From: Gemmatimonadota bacterium
GTDB lineage: Bacteria > Gemmatimonadota > Gemmatimonadetes > Gemmatimonadales > GWC2-71-9
Assembly: GCA_003220795.1 (NCBI GenBank)
Contig: QHTK01000045.1
Location: forward strand, 124,001-188,000
DNA length: 64,000 nucleotides
Reading direction: 5' to 3'
In this document: one piece after another, positions 9,880-56,598 of the stretch
How positions within the stretch are numbered: the stretch's first letter is position 1
How the letters are laid out: the number at the start of each line of letters is the position of its first letter
Notes under the pieces: generated by a model
What the model was told of the DNA's origin: nothing
What the model saw: only the letters and a program-made list of their open reading frames with translations
The model's database searches: none
Made by a program: the position numbers and the translations under genes

Positions 9880-11074
9880 GGTCGATTATGCACTCGGCGA
9901 ACTGCGAGGTCGAGACTTCGGTGGCGCCCGGCATCTGGCGCGCCAGGTCGTACGTGACGCGCCGCGCCGCGATCGCGCCCGAGAGCCCGCGGATGATCGC
10001 GTCCGCCGAGTCGCTCCACCCGAGCTCCTCGAACATCATGGCGCCCGAGAGCAGCACCGCCCCGGGATTCACCTTGTCGAGGCCGGCGTACTTGGGGGCG
10101 GTGCCGTGCGTCGCTTCGAACACGGCGAATCCGTCGCCGACGTTGCCGCCGGGCGCCATGCCGAGGCCGCCGATTTGCGCGACGCAGGCGTCGGACAGGT
10201 AGTCGCCGTTCAAATTCGGCGTGGCAATCACCGAGTACTCCTCGGGGCGGAGCAACACCTGCTGGAACATCGAATCGGCGATGCGATCCTTGATCACCAC
10301 CCTTCCCGCTGCCCCCTTCCCCTTTGTCGTCTCTGCTTCGGAGACCGTCTTGTCGCCGAACCGCTCCTTCGCGACCTCGTAGCCCCACTCGCGGAACGCC
10401 CCTTCGGTGAACTTCATGATGTTGCCTTTGTGCACGAGGGTGACCGAGGGGCGGCGCGCCTTGATCGCGTACTCGATCGCCTTGACGACGAGGCGCTGGC
10501 TGCCGAACCGGGACATCGGCTTAATGCCCAGGGCACTCCCTTCGCGGATCTTGGCGCCGAATTGGTCGCGCAGAAACACGAGCAGCCGGGTCGCCTCGGG
10601 GCTTCCGGCGGCGTACTCGACCCCGGTGTACACGTCTTCGGTGTTCTCGCGATAGACGACGACGTCGAGCTTCTCGGGTTCCCGCATCGGGCTCGGCACC
10701 CCGGCGAAGTAGCGCACCGGCCGGATACAGGCGTACAGATCGAGCAGCTGGCGCAGGGCCACATTGAGCGAGCGGATGCCGCCGCCCACCGGGGTCGTGA
10801 GCGGACCCTTGATGGCGACGCGGTAGCGGCGGATGTTTTCGAGCGTCTCCTCGGGGAGCCAGTTGCCCGTCTGCTGGAACGCCTTCTCCCCCGCGAGCAC
10901 CTCCAGCCACTCCACCCGGCGCTTGCCCCTGGAGACTTTCTCGACCACGGCGTCGAACACGCGGCGCGATGCGCGCCAGATGTCGGGCCCGGTGCCGTCG
11001 CCCTCGATGAATGGGATCACGGGCCGGTCGGGCACCACCCAACGGCCATCGCGAAAGTCGATGCGGTCCCCCAT
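9872..11074 (-). CDS. icd: Isocitrate dehydrogenase [NADP]
   Basis: A 400-residue TCA-cycle enzyme converting isocitrate to 2-oxoglutarate. Conserved pieces include [14 protein letters not shown], the substrate-binding serine in [10 protein letters not shown] (the residue phosphorylated in E. coli Icd), [14 protein letters not shown] and the NADP-discriminating HGTAPKYAG. The ATG at 11074 is preceded by GGAG. The gene is divergent from the operon at 11144 across a 69-base gap. Confidence 0.96.
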
Positions 11075-11105
11075 AGAGGCTCCAGTCTACACGGCCCAGC
11101 CGGGG

Positions 11106-11135
11106 TTGCGCCAGCCGAACGCACGCACGTAGACT
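11106..11135 (+). promoter_or_regulatory. Promoter for the 11144 envelope operon
   Basis: TTGCGC (11106-11111), an 18-base spacer and TAGACT (11130-11135). The start codon follows 8 bases after the -10, with no Shine-Dalgarno, which predicts a leaderless transcript. It lies in the short divergent gap with icd, so the two directions may compete. Confidence 0.55.
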
Positions 11136-11143
11136 TGCAACTC

Positions 11144-11482
11144 ATGCGACGCGCCGCCGCTCTCTCGCTCTACGCCTTCGCCGCCGCCTGCTGGCTCGCG
11201 GGCGGCCCGGGCGGCGTGACGCTCGACGCGATGCTCGCCTGCCGCCACCAGACGCATCACACCCACGGTGGCCACGCGGGCACGCCGCCGGACGGTCCAT
11301 GTTTTTGCAGCGAGATGACCAGCGGCTCGGATGTAGCGGTCTCGGTCGCTGTACCGGCGCCGCTCGCGACGCACCTGGTCGTCACGGTTGCGCGTCGCGT
11401 CGCCGCCCACCCTTCCCCCTTCCCCCTTCCCCGTTCCCCGTCCTTCGCTCCCGAATCCCCTCCGCCGAACGCGCTCGCCTGA
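11144..11482 (+). CDS. Small secreted Cys/His-rich protein
   Basis: A 112-residue protein not assigned to a family. An N-terminal signal segment (MRRAAALSLYAFAAACWLAGG) precedes a short metal-ligand-rich stretch, CRHQTHHTHGGHAG then CFCSEM. The C-terminal part is Pro/Ser-rich and ends in a low-complexity PSPFPLPRSP region. The Cys and His pattern suggests metal binding outside the cytoplasm, in keeping with the Met-rich membrane protein three genes on; this is inference. The ATG is chosen because the -10 lies 8 bases upstream. It could be overcalled, since it is short and GC-rich. Confidence 0.55.
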   Translation: MRRAAALSLYAFAAACWLAGGPGGVTLDAMLACRHQTHHTHGGHAGTPPDGPCFCSEMTSGSDVAVSVAVPAPLATHLVVTVARRVAAHPSPFPLPRSPSFAPESPPPNALA

Positions 11483-11524
11483 CCTGATCCCGCAGCGTCT
11501 CACACAATTGAGAGGAGGATCATC

Positions 11525-12583
11525 ATGCGCAGCGCGCTGTGCAGCGCTCTGCTTTGCGGCGTGGCGTTCGGGGCCGCGGCGCAGGAGCGGGTAGTCACAT
11601 TCGAAGAGACGCCGCCCGTGACCGTCACGGGGTTCGCCGTGGGCCGGGCGGACTACGATCGCCTTGTCCGCACCAACAGCTTCACGGCCGGGAAGATCGG
11701 GGTGAGTCTGTTCAAGCCCGCCGGCGACGCGTACCTGTTCGCGCAGTTGACCACGGCGCTGGACGGCGGCGGCGAGGCCGCCACGGAGATCGATAACCTG
11801 CTGGTGAGCTGGACGCCGCGGACGGCGAATCAGTGGACCGTGGCGTTCGGCCGCTTCGACTCACCCATCGGCTTCGAGCGTGATGACGAGCCGCTCAACC
11901 TCATCCCGACGAATTCGTTCAACTTCACCTTCGCGCGGCCCGGCAAGCTCACCGGGGTGCAGGTGCATTACACCGCGTCGCCGCGGCTCGATGTGTGGGG
12001 CATCGCGGCGAACGGCTGGGACGTGGGGGTGGACAACAATCGCGGCAAGACCGCCTTGGCGCGTGCCCAATTCATTCCGATACCCTGGGTCACCGTGGGA
12101 CTCGCAGGCGTCTACGGCCCCGAGCACGCCTCCACCGACGCGCAACAACGCTCCCTGCTCTCGGGCGACCTCACCATCGACCGCGGGCGGGTGATTCTGG
12201 GCGCCGAGCTGAACCTTGGCCGGGAGCGTACCGGCGGAAGCGGCGACGTGACGTGGCGGGGCGCCGCCGGCACGGTGTTTGTCCGCCTGGCGCGCAACCT
12301 AGGTGTGACTGCGCGGTACGATCAAATGGAAGACACCGACGGCCTGCTCACCGGCACGCCGCAAATCCTGCGCTCCGTGACCGTCGGCCCGATGTGGTAC
12401 TTCAGTAGCGCGCGCGAAGGAATCTTCAGCAACGTCGAGCACACGCGCTTCCACCTCCCGCAAATCGCGCTGCGCGCCGCGGTTCGGGCCGATTGGTCGT
12501 CCCAGCCGTTCTTCGCGGACGCGGGCGGTGCGCTGCAGGGCTCGAATACCACGGGCGTCCTCGAGCTCGTGTACGTCTTCTAG
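11525..12583 (+). CDS. Outer membrane beta-barrel porin-like protein
   Basis: A 352-residue exported protein with a signal peptide ending GAAAQE. It has no plug domain. Alternating hydrophobic strands with aromatic girdles run throughout, such as VTGFAVGRADYDRL, QWTVAFGRFDSPIGF, VQVHYTAS and LDVWGIAANGWDVG, and it ends in the barrel terminus VLELVYVF with a final Phe. This fits the OmpL/bbp2-like or phosphate-porin-like class. It has a strong ribosome site, GAGGAGG, 8 bases before ATG. It heads the overlapping run of envelope genes to 14184. Confidence 0.72.
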   Translation: MRSALCSALLCGVAFGAAAQERVVTFEETPPVTVTGFAVGRADYDRLVRTNSFTAGKIGVSLFKPAGDAYLFAQLTTALDGGGEAATEIDNLLVSWTPRTANQWTVAFGRFDSPIGFERDDEPLNLIPTNSFNFTFARPGKLTGVQVHYTASPRLDVWGIAANGWDVGVDNNRGKTALARAQFIPIPWVTVGLAGVYGPEHASTDAQQRSLLSGDLTIDRGRVILGAELNLGRERTGGSGDVTWRGAAGTVFVRLARNLGVTARYDQMEDTDGLLTGTPQILRSVTVGPMWYFSSAREGIFSNVEHTRFHLPQIALRAAVRADWSSQPFFADAGGALQGSNTTGVLELVYVF

Positions 12584-50020: not shown

Positions 50021-50338
50021 TCAACCCCGATCGGTCCAATCCACGCCGAAGCTGTTGCCGCACTCGTGGCATTTCACGTCCTTGGGCTGGCCCGACACGT
50101 ACTGGCGCCTGTGGCACCCCGGGCACACGAGATGCGGCTCGTGCACCACGCTCCAGGACTTCGGCCGGTCCTTTCGGACGTCGACGTTGTCTCTGGGCAC
50201 GCGCACTTCGACTTGGTGCACATCCAGCACCACCCATTCCTTACCATGGTCTTCCACGATCCGGTACCACGCGCCCCGCCGCAGGCCTTCCTTCTCCGCG
50301 CGGTTGCCGTGGCTCCGGGCCCATCCGATGTCGGCCAT
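50021..50338 (-). CDS. Zinc-ribbon protein of the LRRGAWYR family (copy C)
   Basis: A 105-residue paralogue of the genes at 14206 and 15011: WARSHGN, LRRGAWYRIVED, VRVPRDNV, WSVV, then LVCPGCHRRQYV and VKCHECGNSFGVDW with the two CxxC pairs. It is the most compact version and lacks the WGPRY motif. It begins 3 bases after the GroES-like gene, so the two are translated together; this suggests a role near protein folding or quality control (inference). Confidence 0.72.
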   Translation of the reverse strand: MADIGWARSHGNRAEKEGLRRGAWYRIVEDHGKEWVVLDVHQVEVRVPRDNVDVRKDRPKSWSVVHEPHLVCPGCHRRQYVSGQPKDVKCHECGNSFGVDWTDRG

Positions 50339-50341
50339 GCG

Positions 50342-50725
50342 CTACTCCACTTCCTCGGGGGTCGCTTCCCGCACGAGCACGAGGATCGCCGCCTGCGGTA
50401 TGACAAGGTACTTCTTGCCTTCGAACGTGATCTCGACGGCCGCCTTCCGGAAGAACAACCCGTAGTCGCCGACCTGGGCCTGCATGGGGAGGTACTTCAC
50501 GTCCGGGCCGTGGATCTTCCACGGCTCGTCGTCCATGCTGGCGGGCTCGGTCATGGGCGTCCCCGGCCCGGTCGCGACGATGCGACCGCCCTGGACCTGT
50601 CGGCTCTCGAGCGCCGTGGGGGGGAGATACAGCCCGACATTGGTGCGCTCCTCCCCCTCTTCCGGGGAGATCAACACCCGGTCGCCCACGACGATCAGGC
50701 GTTTGGGAGTTTCGTCGTCGCGCAT
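50342..50725 (-). CDS. GroES-like co-chaperonin family protein
   Basis: A 127-residue chaperonin-10-fold protein. It has KRLIVVGDRVLISPEEGEE, a mobile-loop-like NVGLYLPPTALES, GGRIVATGPG, VGDYGLFFRKA and a late ILVLVRE. It is longer than GroES because of an insert (PMTEPASMDDEPWKIHGPD). No groEL is adjacent. The ATG 50725 is 7 bases after a strong -10 box and has no Shine-Dalgarno, so translation is probably leaderless. Function as a true co-chaperonin is not assured. Confidence 0.78.
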   Translation of the reverse strand: MRDDETPKRLIVVGDRVLISPEEGEERTNVGLYLPPTALESRQVQGGRIVATGPGTPMTEPASMDDEPWKIHGPDVKYLPMQAQVGDYGLFFRKAAVEITFEGKKYLVIPQAAILVLVREATPEEVE

Positions 50726-50732
50726 GGGCAAC

Positions 50733-50761
50733 AGTATACGTCCGAGGGGCAAAGCTGTCAG
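50733..50761 (-). promoter_or_regulatory. Promoter of the GroES-like gene
   Basis: Minus strand: CTGACA (50761-50756), 17-base spacer, TATACT (50738-50733), one of the best matches in the window. The ATG begins 7 bases after the -10, so transcription and translation starts coincide. Confidence 0.75.
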
Positions 50762-50792
50762 CCCTGTTTGTGACGCAGATCACCGGCGCCGC

Positions 50793-50820
50793 TTGACACG
50801 GCGGAGACGGTCACTATCAA
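50793..50820 (+). promoter_or_regulatory. Promoter of the membrane protein / vWA operon
   Basis: TTGACA (50793-50798), 16-base spacer, TATCAA (50815-50820). The -35 is perfect; the -10 lacks the last T. It leaves an 80-base leader before ATG 50908, which has its own GGGAG ribosome site. Confidence 0.6.
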
Positions 50821-50907
50821 TGTGTCCCGGCCGCTCGGGCGTCCGGGTGCGCCGTCGGTTCCCACGACCGCCAATCCCGGTTCCCACCCCAGTGAGGGAG
50901 CACTGAC

Positions 50908-52137
50908 ATGCAACAACCGCTAGGCACTGCCCAGACCGAGCAGTGGAGCTGGATTCTCCAGACGGTGTGGGGCTGGATCTGGGCGGGCCTGTCCTGGATC
51001 CTCGATTGGCAGGCGCTGGTGTTCCGCACGGTGCTCTCGGGTGATTCCTTCTGGCAGATCGTGGGGAAGTTCTTGTTGCTCTTCTTCCCGGCGACGGTGC
51101 TGGTGGCGGGCGTCTGGGGCACGATGGTCTCGCTCTACACCATTCCGTTCCGCTCGGGCCGCGGACGCTTTCTGGCGGCGCTGCTCATGTCCTGGTGGGA
51201 CGCGGTCCGCATGGCGTGGTTTTACTGGTTCGGCCTGGCGCGCTTCCTCCTCGTGTTCGTGGGCTGGATCTGGGGTCTGCTCCGCCTTGGCGTCGGGCTG
51301 TTGTGGCGGACCCTGAAGAACCTGGTCACGTCGCCCTTCGCCATGCTGGATTCGAGCTCGCGCCAGCCGGGGGTGCCGTGGATCGCGTTCATGCTGCTGC
51401 TGTTCTGGTCCGCCATCGAGGCCACGATCTTCACCTTCACGCTGCGTCCGACGATGAGCGAGCTGCTCTCGGACTTGACGGGCTACCAGGTGAACGCGCT
51501 GGCCCTCGTCGTGCTCCTGTGGTTCTTTCTGTTCATCATCATCGGGGGCAGCTTCGCCTGTATCCAGGTGCTGAACGAGGCGATCAAGACTCGCGCCATC
51601 GGGCAGATCGTCTCGATGGTGCTGGTCGAGTTGGCGGTTGCCCTGTTCGAGGTGCTCTTCTTGTACCGCGAGCTGATCGACGCCATCACGCCGTGGCTGG
51701 CCCAGCAGGGGTTCCAGTTGGGGATCGTCGGGACCCTGGGGCTGGCCCTGCTGGGGTGGGTGGGCGTGCGCGGCATGACCTGGTTCCTGTTCGGGCGGTT
51801 CGGGACGCCGGCGCTGCTCGCCATCCTGGGCCGGAAGGCGATGGAAGGCGTGGGCGCCGTGCGGGCGGCCGCGACCGCGGACGTGGAGTTCTGGCGCGGT
51901 CCGATCAACGCGCTCAAGGCCGAGCACGAGTGGTTCAAGAAGGAGGCCCAGCACCTGATGGAGCTCTTGACCCTGCCGGTGCTGCAGTTGGTCGCCAGCG
52001 GGTTCAACTTCCTGGTCGTCGTCATCATGGGCAAGCCGCACTTCAACCTGCCATTCCGGTCGCTGGACCAGGTGCTCACCAGCACGCCGATCTTCCACAC
52101 CGGCAAGACCCACACGGTCGAGGGAGGTGCGTCATGA
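50908..52137 (+). CDS. Polytopic membrane protein, unknown family
   Basis: A 409-residue protein I do not recognise. The N-terminal 35 residues are strikingly Trp-rich (WSWILQTVWGWIWAGLSW). TM helices lie at about 52-78, 100-132, 157-178, 195-220, 231-254 and 270-290. A charged soluble tail (about 300-409) contains EFWRGPINALKAEHEWFKKEAQHLMELL, then a final hydrophobic patch. The stop overlaps the start of a vWA lipoprotein gene, so the two probably form a complex across the inner membrane. Confidence 0.7.
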   Translation: MQQPLGTAQTEQWSWILQTVWGWIWAGLSWILDWQALVFRTVLSGDSFWQIVGKFLLLFFPATVLVAGVWGTMVSLYTIPFRSGRGRFLAALLMSWWDAVRMAWFYWFGLARFLLVFVGWIWGLLRLGVGLLWRTLKNLVTSPFAMLDSSSRQPGVPWIAFMLLLFWSAIEATIFTFTLRPTMSELLSDLTGYQVNALALVVLLWFFLFIIIGGSFACIQVLNEAIKTRAIGQIVSMVLVELAVALFEVLFLYRELIDAITPWLAQQGFQLGIVGTLGLALLGWVGVRGMTWFLFGRFGTPALLAILGRKAMEGVGAVRAAATADVEFWRGPINALKAEHEWFKKEAQHLMELLTLPVLQLVASGFNFLVVVIMGKPHFNLPFRSLDQVLTSTPIFHTGKTHTVEGGAS

Positions 52138-52889
52138 GGCGTCGCGTCGCGGCCCTGGTCCTGGCGCTCGGCGTCGTAGCGTGCTCGCCGTCGCAACGGG
52201 CCGAGACGCCCAGGTCGACGCTGGTGATCGGCCTCGATATCAGCGGCTCGTTCCGGCGCAATCCCAGTTTCAACGGGGCGATCGAGTTCGCGTCGCTCTA
52301 CATCTACGGCCATCTGAACGGGGTCGGCGGGCTACAGCCGAACACGGCGATCTTCGTCGGGGAGCTGGGCGGGGAGCGCACCGGCCAGGCCAAGGTGTTC
52401 CACCCGATCCAGGATCTCTCGGGCAAGTCGCCCGCGCAGATTGCATCGGACCTGCGAGCGTGGTTCCCGCAAGAGGACCCGATCACCGATTTCAACGCGT
52501 TCTTCCAGCGCGCGGCCCTGCATGTGAAGCGCAACAATCTGGTGCTGGCGCCGCTCAACGTCGTGCTGTTCTCCGACGGCGAGCCGGACTATCCGGGGGC
52601 GGGCCGGCTGTCCGTGGAGGACAAGTACAAACGGGTGGACCTGAGCCCGCTCGAATACCTGTCGCGCAACGTGACCGTGCGTCTGTTGTACGCCGACCCG
52701 CCCATCGCCCAGTTGTGGGAGAACAAGGTGCCGCGCAAGCGCGTGCGCCTGTGGACGCAGGACTCGGAAGTGATGAAAGGGTGGCGGCGCCACGTGGTGG
52801 AAAGCGTGCCGATCGAGCGGCAGGACTCGCTCTGGTCCTGGGTGGAGCACGTGGTGGACATGCGGGTACGGCGGGAGCGGGTTTTGTGA
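52134..52889 (+). CDS. von Willebrand factor A-domain lipoprotein
   Basis: A 251-residue exported protein. The signal peptide ends at LGVVAC (Cys17). The fold opens TLVIGLDISGSF, where DISGS (35-39) is the DxSxS of a metal-ion adhesion site; FSDGEPD supplies the later Asp. No TPR or von Willebrand partner domain is attached. It is coupled by ATGA to the polytopic membrane protein upstream. It could bind a ligand or substrate at the outer face of the membrane for that protein. Confidence 0.75.
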   Translation: MRRRVAALVLALGVVACSPSQRAETPRSTLVIGLDISGSFRRNPSFNGAIEFASLYIYGHLNGVGGLQPNTAIFVGELGGERTGQAKVFHPIQDLSGKSPAQIASDLRAWFPQEDPITDFNAFFQRAALHVKRNNLVLAPLNVVLFSDGEPDYPGAGRLSVEDKYKRVDLSPLEYLSRNVTVRLLYADPPIAQLWENKVPRKRVRLWTQDSEVMKGWRRHVVESVPIERQDSLWSWVEHVVDMRVRRERVL

Positions 52890-52910
52890 GACGTCAGACG
52901 TCAGACGTCA
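52890..52910. repeat. Triple GACGTCA direct repeat
   Basis: Three perfect head-to-tail copies of GACGTCA between convergent genes. The methyltransferase stop lies inside, so its last residues are encoded by the repeat. Related AGAAGTCAG units recur near 59751-59766. Each unit is nearly self-complementary (GACGTC), so the array could bind a dimeric protein. Confidence 0.6.
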
Positions 52911-53643
52911 GCTGTGCCCACGTTTCCGGATCCGCGCCCCCGTGCGGCACCAGGGCGCGCTGTAGCTTGTAGCGCAGTTTCGCAACGCCCCGGAGGTCAC
53001 GCCCCCGCTCGGACAGCGGGATGAGCCGCGCGGCGCGACGCGCCAAGGCGCCCCGGGCCTCGCGAAACCGTGCCGATGCGCCGTCCACCGGTCGATGCTG
53101 CGCCCAGCCGATCGATCCGCAGCACCCCGCCGGCCCATAGCGGTCCGACCCCAACACGTCCTCCACGAACACGCGGATCGGGCCCGCGAAGTTGTGGAGC
53201 ACGTCGTGGAGGGCCACGACGCCGCCCGGAGCCAGGTGCGGCGCGAACAGGTCCAGGTCCTGCTTCGCGCCCGGGTAGGTGTGGTCGCCGTCGATCCAGA
53301 GCAGCCGGATCGGCCGGTCCCAGCGGGTCGCGAGCTCATGTGAAAACTTGCGGTGCACCTCGACGTGATCGGTCAGGCCGGCTCGGGTGAGCGTATGCCG
53401 AAAATCGTCGAACGACGACGCCTGGCCGCCGAGGCCCGGATCGGTGCTCGACGGCGCGGTATGCGGGTCCACGGCGACGACTTTGCCGAGGCGGTAGCGG
53501 GCGGCGACCGAGGCCAGGCCGACGGTGGATTTGCCTTTGAAGCTGCCGATCTCGAGGATGACCCCCTGCGCCGGCACGCAGGCGGCGGCCAGGGCGAGAA
53601 AGCGGGCTTCCCGTTCGGTGAGGAAGCCAGGCGCCGCGCTCAC
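52894..53643 (-). CDS. Class I SAM-dependent methyltransferase
   Basis: A 249-residue methyltransferase of the TylF/Methyltransf_24 kind. It has GVILEIGSFKGKSTVGLA (SAM loop), VVAVDPHT, LLWIDGDHTYPGAKQDLDL and GGVVALHDVL. Target unknown. Upstream in frame, about 18 more codons look coding (FSAAADEAWRLV) but have no ATG/GTG/TTG, so GTG 53643 is taken as the start with reserve. It follows the bacilliredoxin by 50 bases. Confidence 0.82.
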   Translation of the reverse strand: MSAAPGFLTEREARFLALAAACVPAQGVILEIGSFKGKSTVGLASVAARYRLGKVVAVDPHTAPSSTDPGLGGQASSFDDFRHTLTRAGLTDHVEVHRKFSHELATRWDRPIRLLWIDGDHTYPGAKQDLDLFAPHLAPGGVVALHDVLHNFAGPIRVFVEDVLGSDRYGPAGCCGSIGWAQHRPVDGASARFREARGALARRAARLIPLSERGRDLRGVAKLRYKLQRALVPHGGADPETWAQLTSDV

Positions 53644-54510: not shown

Positions 54511-56598
54511 TCACGGAATCGTCGACACCGCGACGGGCGTAAGCTGGTCGACGGTGGTCCCGTTGCCAAGCTGCCCGCTCGAGTTCGCCCCCCAGCAGTA
54601 CGCGGTGTTCAGGGTGGGAGCGTTCGCGATGGCGCAGGAATGGAAGCCGCCGGCGCTCACAGAAGTGAAGCTCACACCCGCCGGGGCGGAGACCAGCCCC
54701 GGTGTCGGGCTATCGGTCGTCGTGCCATCGCCGAGCTGGCCGTTGCTGTTCGACCCCCAGCAGTAGACGCTCCCAGTGGTCGCCACCGCGCACGCGTGGA
54801 AGCCGCCTGCGCTGACCGTGGTGAACGTCACCCCCGCCGGCGCGGCGATCGGCACCGGGAGGAAACTGCTCCCTCCCACCGATCCGGTACCGAGCTGACC
54901 GCCGAAATTTGCTCCCCAGCAATACACGGCGCCCGAGAGGCCAACCCCGCACGAGAATTGGACAAACTCTCCTCCGGCGCTTACTACACTGAACCCGGCG
55001 GAATCGGTCACAGGCAACGCCACCGCGACGGGTGCTGGTTCGATGTAGTTACCCGACGAGCCATTGCCCACAGCGCCCTCGGAATTCCAGCCCCAGCAGT
55101 AGGCTCCGCCATTCGGGGTCAGGGCACACGCGTGGCCGGAGTCGGAGATGACCCCGCCCACGCTGACGGCCGAGAAGCTGACTCCGGCAGGTGTGGCGAT
55201 CAGTTGTGGCGTTGTGAAGAGTCCGCCGACCGACCCGATTCCCAGCTCTCCGGCGATGTTGATGCCCCAGCAGTATCCCGTCCCGAGCGTGTCGGCGGCG
55301 CACGATGCGTTCTGTCCCACGTCCACCGTGACGAAGTGCACTCCCGGCGCCGCTACCAACGTCGGCGTCGAGCTGGCGTCAGTCGTTCCGTCGCCCAGAG
55401 TACCCGCGCCCCAACAGTAGGCCTGACCATTGACGGCGACACCGCAGGCGCGCGCCGACCCCGCGTTCACCACGCTGAAGCCGATGCCCGGGGGAGTGGA
55501 CACCGCCGTCGGGGTGGTGCCGATGCCTCCTGTCGTGCCGTTGCCGAGCTGGCCGATGCCGTTGTCACCCCAGCACACCGTGGTGCCACTCGTCCCCATG
55601 CCACAGCTGAACGCGCCCCCCGCGCTCAGCGACGCGGAGGCGAGCACCCCGTAAGTGCTGAAATGGCTCATTCTGCCCATGACCACGTGCGTCGCGGTGT
55701 TCACCCTGCTGCCTGGCACGAGGAACCAGCGGCCCTGGATCAGCGTGAAGAGCCGCAGCGCCGACTCGGCCGTCCCGCCTGGGAGCTGCGCAGGGCTGTA
55801 CTGCAGGGTGACCGCCACGGGCGACGCGAACATGGTCCCTGTCGGTCCAAAGTCATACGCCGTCCCACCGACGAGCGCGCTGGTGCTCGTACCGGTTGGG
55901 AGCATGGCCGGCACGACGGTGATGCCGGTGAGCTGCGACAGCCCGCCTGCCGGAATGACGAGCTGGACGCTGCTCCCGGCGGCCGTGACCGGCGTCTGAA
56001 TCATGAGCGGTTGGGTGCTCGGCCCCGCGACGAACACGGCTCCTTGCTCGATGCGAAACTTGACCGGCAGCGTTCGGCCGTCGACGAGCGGGAAGAGTTC
56101 GCCGGTGTTCACGTTCTTCGCCTCGTGCTGACTCGCCACCACTTGGACGTCCGCATGTCCCAGCTCGGTGCTCGCCACGAGCACGCGAATCCGATACACG
56201 TTGCCCGACGGCAGCGTGCACGGCCCCGTGGTGCATTGGTCGGTCTGCCAGTTCACGATGTAGAGCTGGCTTGTGGCGTCCACGCGCACCACTGCCGAGG
56301 CGGTGCCGGTGGTCATGGAGAACTGGGCGACGACTGGGCCGCAGTCCGAGCCGGCCAATTGGCACACGGTCACGCCGGGAACTTGCGTCGCGTCGAAGCT
56401 GCCCGTCGCGTTTGGGGTCGCGACGATGGGCGGCAGGAAATAGAAGTGCGGGTTGCCGCTGTTATGGGCTCCGTCGCGGATCTCGAAGCGTGGTGCGTCC
56501 AGGGGTCGAGCTGCGATGGGGGCGTTCACCCTCTCAACGCAGCCGACGAGGACGAGGCTTGCAGCTGCGGTGGCGACCGGCGGGATCATGCGGTGCAT
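54511..56598 (-). CDS. RCC1-repeat lipoprotein with HFYFLPP domain
   Basis: A 695-residue lipoprotein (lipobox SLVLVGC). Residues about 40-190 form a domain shared with the protein at 57644: NPHFYFLPPIV, CQLAGSDCG, YRIRVLV, GHADVQVV, LVDGRTLPVKFRIE. Next is a ZU5-like segment (SVQLVIPAGGLSQLTGITV and MSHFSTYGVL). The last 360 residues are about seven RCC1 propeller blades, each with a YCWG (G..GQLG.G) core and paired cysteines. It is presumably surface exposed. It has a strong ribosome site, AAGGAG. Confidence 0.82.
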   Translation of the reverse strand: MHRMIPPVATAAASLVLVGCVERVNAPIAARPLDAPRFEIRDGAHNSGNPHFYFLPPIVATPNATGSFDATQVPGVTVCQLAGSDCGPVVAQFSMTTGTASAVVRVDATSQLYIVNWQTDQCTTGPCTLPSGNVYRIRVLVASTELGHADVQVVASQHEAKNVNTGELFPLVDGRTLPVKFRIEQGAVFVAGPSTQPLMIQTPVTAAGSSVQLVIPAGGLSQLTGITVVPAMLPTGTSTSALVGGTAYDFGPTGTMFASPVAVTLQYSPAQLPGGTAESALRLFTLIQGRWFLVPGSRVNTATHVVMGRMSHFSTYGVLASASLSAGGAFSCGMGTSGTTVCWGDNGIGQLGNGTTGGIGTTPTAVSTPPGIGFSVVNAGSARACGVAVNGQAYCWGAGTLGDGTTDASSTPTLVAAPGVHFVTVDVGQNASCAADTLGTGYCWGINIAGELGIGSVGGLFTTPQLIATPAGVSFSAVSVGGVISDSGHACALTPNGGAYCWGWNSEGAVGNGSSGNYIEPAPVAVALPVTDSAGFSVVSAGGEFVQFSCGVGLSGAVYCWGANFGGQLGTGSVGGSSFLPVPIAAPAGVTFTTVSAGGFHACAVATTGSVYCWGSNSNGQLGDGTTTDSPTPGLVSAPAGVSFTSVSAGGFHSCAIANAPTLNTAYCWGANSSGQLGNGTTVDQLTPVAVSTIP

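Follow-up and report, generated by a model that had tools for sequence, protein, structure and literature searches.

A two-gene unit in the genome of a Gemmatimonadota bacterium encodes a tryptophan-rich polytopic inner-membrane protein, here called A, and an exported lipoprotein, here called B, with a predicted VWA fold and an intact MIDAS. The pairing of A with B is near certain, recurring with complete linkage in at least five phylum-level groups, and A is a new family. The best explanation of the data as a whole, which stands at about an even chance, is that the two proteins are subunits of one inner-membrane complex working by the mechanism proposed below. In the window, that is, the whole stretch of 64,000 nucleotides that was analysed, gene A (409 amino acids, without a known family according to sequence and profile searches) occupies positions 50908-52137 of the plus strand, and gene B (251 amino acids) occupies positions 52134-52889 of the same strand, both as given in the preliminary description of this DNA.

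The stop codon of A and the start codon of B share a four-base ATGA overlap. Two Shine-Dalgarno-like sequences can be read directly: GAGGGA in front of A (50894-50899, +), for which a GAGGG-type motif is retained in relatives, and GAGGGAGGTG in front of B (52120-52129, +), which lies within gene A. The coordinates, the overlap and the position of GAGGGAGGTG inside A bear out the earlier claim of two coupled adjacent open reading frames. In comparisons with six relatives, dN/dS amounts to 0.11-0.27 for A and 0.10-0.35 for B, and conservation of each protein reaches down to about 40% identity across phyla; judged by these low ratios and by this conservation, both genes are under purifying selection and are not chance reading frames. 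An Rfam search of positions 50400-53100 returned no matches, and a terminator search around the unit found none. Directly after the stop codon of B, the 7-mer GACGTCA occurs in tandem repeats (52891-52912).

In all 80 loci retained from named genomes, A is immediately followed by B in the same orientation, with an overlap of the ATGA type in 68 and of the TGATG type in 5. These loci are labelled as Gemmatimonadota, Nitrospirota (including Nitrospira and Manganitrophus), Rokubacteria, Aminicenantes, Acidobacteria gp22 and FCPU426, and the pair is also retained in a more distant branch of Acidobacteriota. In the 61 nearest genomes, the order relatives, B is present in 14 and A adjoins it in all 14; in the 395 Gemmatimonadota genomes, A stands beside B in 45 of the 45 that have B, no B without A was found, and the sole clear A without B (G002) is truncated at the end of a contig. 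The preliminary description had proposed co-occurrence as the check on the pair and had named unlinked genes in most genomes as the refuting outcome; what was found is linkage in every genome with B, which supports its view of the pair as genuine, coupled and undescribed. Occurrence is patchy, with full matches in 46 of 395 Gemmatimonadota, 14 of 296 Nitrospirota and 9 of 297 Acidobacteriota genomes, and in 36 of 95 genomes of the Rokubacteria phylum when the B-less paralogues described below are counted in. Neighbouring gene families are common within a phylum and not between phyla, and no third gene family conserved around the pair across phyla was found. Since the neighbours differ in this manner, A and B are, by gene context, a self-contained two-gene unit. 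The neighbours of the pair in the window, a GroES-like protein and a RecQ-like helicase, are uninformative on function. One locus labelled “Terrabacteria group ANGP1” (L051) nests within Gemmatimonadota and has Gemmatimonadota neighbours, which suggests a mis-binned contig.

A natural fusion of A and B was encountered in Rokubacteria AR26 (L103, positions 9941-11857 of that locus, a reading frame of 639 amino acids). A DNA alignment with five close relatives, all of which keep A and B as separate genes, traces it to one deletion of 86 bp across the stop codon of A and the start codon of B in a single metagenome assembly. Little weight was given to this fusion, because a deletion seen in one assembly has about a one-in-three chance of being in frame. 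The relatives already lack the lipobox, so the loss of the lipobox cysteine was not caused by the fusion. The fusion was also rejected as a basis for a structure of the pair, since the mixed alignment matched most B rows, in their N-terminal part, to columns of A.

Protein B is recognised neither by Pfam and NCBIfam nor by a sequence-profile search of PDB, where nothing credible was returned, and the Pfam VWA models match none of 63 members of the B family at E <= 0.01. The AlphaFold model built with 63 homologues (pLDDT 87.5, pTM 0.83) predicts an alpha/beta Rossmann-like VWA fold, and the Foldseek matches of this model in PDB, among the matches listed, are VWA domains or proteins containing one, with E down to 7.6e-7 and a probability of 1.00. 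The predicted fold thereby confirms the VWA/MIDAS identity of B, which is placed in the VWA fold and not in any Pfam VWA sequence family. The lipoprotein with an intact DISGS metal site that had been read from the single sequence is likewise upheld by 117 B proteins. The first MIDAS motif, DISGS (residues 35-39; 52236-52250, +), has D35, S37 and S39 in all 117; T118 (52485-52487, +) is threonine in 116 and serine in one; and D148, within SDG (52575-52577, +), is again present in all 117. In the B protein of the transglycosylase-A-B locus L172/L206, DATGT stands in place of DxSGS. In its predicted fold and its DxSxS...T...D site, B resembles integrin I-domain-like VWA/MIDAS proteins, such as ITIH1, complement C2a, CMG2, RGLG and the VWA domain of NorD; it differs from them in having no detectable sequence relation to them and in conserved features of its own family, namely GG at 79-80, R183, W195, W217 and W236.

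The signal peptide of B in the window, MRRRVAALVLALGVVAC, carries a VVAC lipobox with the cysteine at residue 17 (52182-52184, +). The lipobox is present in most clades; in several clades of Rokubacteria the cysteine is gone and an ordinary signal peptide remains. A scripted count gave 40 B proteins without a lipobox, a figure that includes some with non-standard lipoboxes. Because an export signal is kept where the lipobox is lost, these signal peptides indicate that export of B is retained and that its lipid anchor is replaceable.

Protein A had been described as an unfamiliar six-helix, tryptophan-rich protein. Its polytopic nature and its richness in tryptophan (24 residues) stand, and the number of helices proved approximate: over the family there are seven hydrophobic cores (54-72, 108-127, 161-174, 201-219, 238-252, 278-286 and 357-374) in addition to an amphipathic helix at the N-terminus, in a topology derived from hydrophobicity and charge only. 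Many of the tryptophans are invariant, including W97, W158, W167, W263, W284, W292 and W342, and the conserved charged or polar residues in or beside the predicted helices comprise E171, E241, E248, R254, E255, D258, R288 and N367. There is no family match above the cut-off in Pfam or NCBIfam, and a sequence-profile search of PDB gave no match. The overall arrangement in the structure model of A is not reliable (pTM 0.49), and a Foldseek search with this model gave no match at E <= 0.001; the GPCR and ABC proteins at the top of its results were discarded as noise from a helical model of low pTM. There is weak similarity to DUF2304 (PF10066): A of the window scores 15.2 bits over two helices only, below the Pfam gathering cut-off of 25.5, and 7 of 63 A proteins show the similarity over about 65 residues, with a best E of 2.3e-4. 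Membership of A in DUF2304 was accordingly rejected. In a few assemblies A appears to be frameshifted or split (L079, positions 9991-11893; G213, G668, G396 and G108), and these cases are probably assembly errors or decaying copies.

The first hint of the job of A comes from its paralogues. Many Rokubacteria carry a second, divergent A, of which 18 loci were examined. In 16 of the 17 B-less Rokubacteria paralogues, a lytic transglycosylase (SLT) gene lies immediately upstream of A, and in 9 of the 17, all of them SLT-linked, a gene for a MurC-like ligase overlaps A downstream; this ligase is called MurC-like only, as it scores below the NCBIfam cut-offs for both MurC and Mpl. A conserved operon of SLT, divergent A and MurC-like ligase with no B beside it is seen in Rokubacteria at L190, L191, L193-L196, L202, L204 and L205. 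The gene order of L206 is transglycosylase-A-B. In a quick tree, the B-less branch stands beside the Rokubacterial A proteins of A-B pairs, and L206, with its B, is nested inside the branch, a placement from which we infer that B was probably lost in the paralogue branch. A B-less Acidobacteriota paralogue (L216) is also adjacent to an SLT gene; it belongs to a different phylum and its position in the tree is unsure. Five genomes (G459, G461, G463, G480 and G855) encode such an A and have no detectable B anywhere in their assemblies, which may be incomplete; on the evidence of these gene inventories, A can work without B. A search with the proteins of L169 found a transglycosylase or Mur ligase gene beside none of the 80 ordinary A-B pairs. 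The neighbourhood of the B-less versions of A, in which a lytic transglycosylase is often joined by a MurC-like ligase, suggests tentatively that the work of A may concern peptidoglycan turnover, for example the handling of wall fragments or the control of lytic transglycosylases, all of the evidence for this link coming from A paralogues.

The same paralogues point to a candidate docking site for B on A. Codons 253-276 of A (51664-51735, +) encode a predicted extracytoplasmic loop between helices 5 and 6, the outside location of which is predicted from its low content of lysine and arginine. Two acidic residues of this loop, E255 (100%) and D258 (98%), are retained in the A proteins of A-B pairs, and in most B-less paralogues they are lost or the loop is shortened. 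Among the 61 positions that A-B pairs conserve, the B-less transglycosylase-linked group retains 50 and lacks 11; the lost positions make up 4 of the 6 in the region 255-276 (E255, D258, G272 and T276) versus 7 of the 55 elsewhere (Fisher P 0.008, for a region picked afterwards). The loop stretch measures 26 residues in 12 of 16 transglycosylase-linked B-less proteins, instead of 31-34. L206, which lies within the B-less branch and has B, keeps E255, D258 and a stretch of 32 residues. The correlation is imperfect, as the B-less L197 and L198 keep both E255 and D258. Loss of B together with a change in the loop of A nevertheless supports, at the level of sequence, a contact between the two proteins. 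The metal of a MIDAS usually has its coordination completed by an acidic residue that the partner contributes. In the calcium channel CaV1.2, the VWA-bearing alpha2-delta subunit is anchored by acidic residues on an extracellular loop (PMC5655503). Taken together, the pattern of loop loss, this rule and this precedent make E255 or D258 plausible as the best candidate for the ligand of the metal of B, and single these residues out for mutation.

In the mechanism that we propose, A and B would be likely to bind each other in the periplasm. The divalent metal at the MIDAS of B may be completed by the invariant acid E255 or D258 in the loop between helices 5 and 6 of A, a step for which the case falls a little short of even. 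With the arguments about evenly balanced, A could be the working part of the complex, acting through its buried conserved residues E171, E241, E248, R288 and N367, and B could recruit, sense or gate; the preliminary description had pointed to MIDAS lipoproteins as frequent regulators or feeders of a membrane partner, and B may act on A in such a way. That A is a membrane core tied to peptidoglycan turnover is a more doubtful element, put forward with reserve. It would be a decidedly speculative extension to regard A as a new class of peptidoglycan-turnover membrane machine, either a wall-fragment permease or a transglycosylase-controlling platform, with an interchangeable periplasmic partner: the VWA subunit in most phyla and, in the Rokubacteria branch, the lytic transglycosylase, with the MurC-like ligase inside.

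Several other explanations fit part of these data. B might be the binding protein of an importer, capturing a solute or a wall fragment and passing it to A as a secondary permease. The order of a lipoprotein gene and a permease gene is common, conserved charged residues are buried in A, and a release and reuse of wall fragments would suit the lytic transglycosylase and the MurC-like ligase next to the paralogue; we consider such an importer unlikely all the same, as the ligands of VWA/MIDAS domains are proteins or matrix in far more cases than small solutes, an ATPase gene is absent and A shows no resemblance to transporters in Pfam or PDB. There is a small chance that the partnership is one of assembly: B would help A to assemble or keep it stable, or A would do so for B, and the helper would play no role in the final activity. 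Maturation of complexes is a known task of VWA proteins, NorD and ViaA among them, the NorD VWA domain is among the fold matches of B, and the translational coupling of A and B would suit this role; the known cases, however, use a cytoplasmic MoxR-type AAA protein, whereas B is an exported protein and the pair has no conserved third gene next to it.

An ion channel or mechanosensitive pore formed by A and tuned by B as an alpha2-delta-like subunit is suggested by analogy, given the similar outline of a lipid-anchored VWA/MIDAS ectodomain beside a polytopic protein and the precedent for docking on an acidic loop (PMC5655503); in A, however, there is no pore motif and no match to a channel fold, and the transglycosylase and MurC-like neighbours of the paralogue would be left unexplained, which renders this option improbable. 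That the genes form a mobile defence or toxin-immunity pair is hardly credible, even if the patchy occurrence in Gemmatimonadota, Nitrospirota and Acidobacteriota given above might be read so: PADLOC gave no match, the pair is usually present in a single copy and without conserved mobile genes around it, purifying selection on A and B is strong, and the neighbourhood is kept within families. The reading of A and B as two subunits of one inner-membrane complex is the one followed here.

The general arrangement of a VWA/MIDAS ectodomain with a polytopic partner is of a known sort, and A itself is new. CaV with alpha2-delta likewise combines a lipid-anchored extracytoplasmic VWA/MIDAS protein with a polytopic partner that has a conserved acidic loop (PMC5655503), but A is not homologous to channels and B is without the cache domains of alpha2-delta. 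The pairs of a MoxR AAA ATPase and a VWA cofactor, RavA-ViaA and NorQ-NorD, share with A-B a VWA/MIDAS partner protein and differ in that B is exported and that no AAA gene family is shared beside the pair across phyla. No description of a VWA/MIDAS protein paired with such an inner-membrane partner was found in the open-access literature that was searched, in agreement with the earlier remark that no pair of this form had been described. The pair occurs in several phyla, whose members are mostly uncultured bacteria of soil and sediment, and both proteins are outside Pfam and NCBIfam, so annotation pipelines presumably leave them unnamed. Should the complex prove real, bacteria would offer a minimal example of a MIDAS ectodomain that acts on a polytopic protein, with an outline like that of alpha2-delta and calcium channels, and the paralogue operon offers a concrete handle on function through peptidoglycan turnover.

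Upstream of A, a -35 element TTGACA (50793-50798, +) can be read directly and does not vary among 13 aligned upstream regions; it is followed, after a spacer of 16 nt, by a probable -10 element TATCAA (50815-50820, +), which reads TATTAA in most relatives and belongs to a conserved block TAT-x-AATG. The preliminary description had deduced strong expression from a consensus -35. The -35 is indeed an exact match; TATCAA is a weak match to TATAAT, is not reported by a consensus scan and is not a strong sigma-70 -10. About 23 nt 5' of the -35, measured from start to start, lies the palindrome GTGA-N6-TCAC (50770-50783, +), the half-site pattern of CRP/FNR regulators, which is conserved 5' of A in Gemmatimonadota pairs. 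Among 114 upstream regions, 21 contain it exactly and 17 with one mismatch, the exact form being expected in 0.13% of shuffled upstream regions; all 21 exact and most (about 10) of the one-mismatch palindromes belong to Gemmatimonadota or to loci that group with them. The window has a single instance of the palindrome with TTGACA 8-12 nt further downstream, where none is expected, and the whole genome has two of a slightly looser form. The Gemmatimonadota unit probably has a promoter of its own and, judged from the motif alone, is probably controlled by a regulator of the CRP/FNR type.

The intergenic region that contains the palindrome also holds a promoter-like site on the minus strand (50761-50733). 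Divergent from the A-B unit are the gene of the GroES-like protein (50342-50752, -), which has 136 amino acids and scores below all GroES cut-offs, and a gene for a small CxxC zinc-ribbon protein (50021-50338, -). On the other side of the pair, the window encodes a secreted-looking protein with RCC1-like repeats of the form CAV..YCWGxNxxGQLGDG (54511-56598, -).
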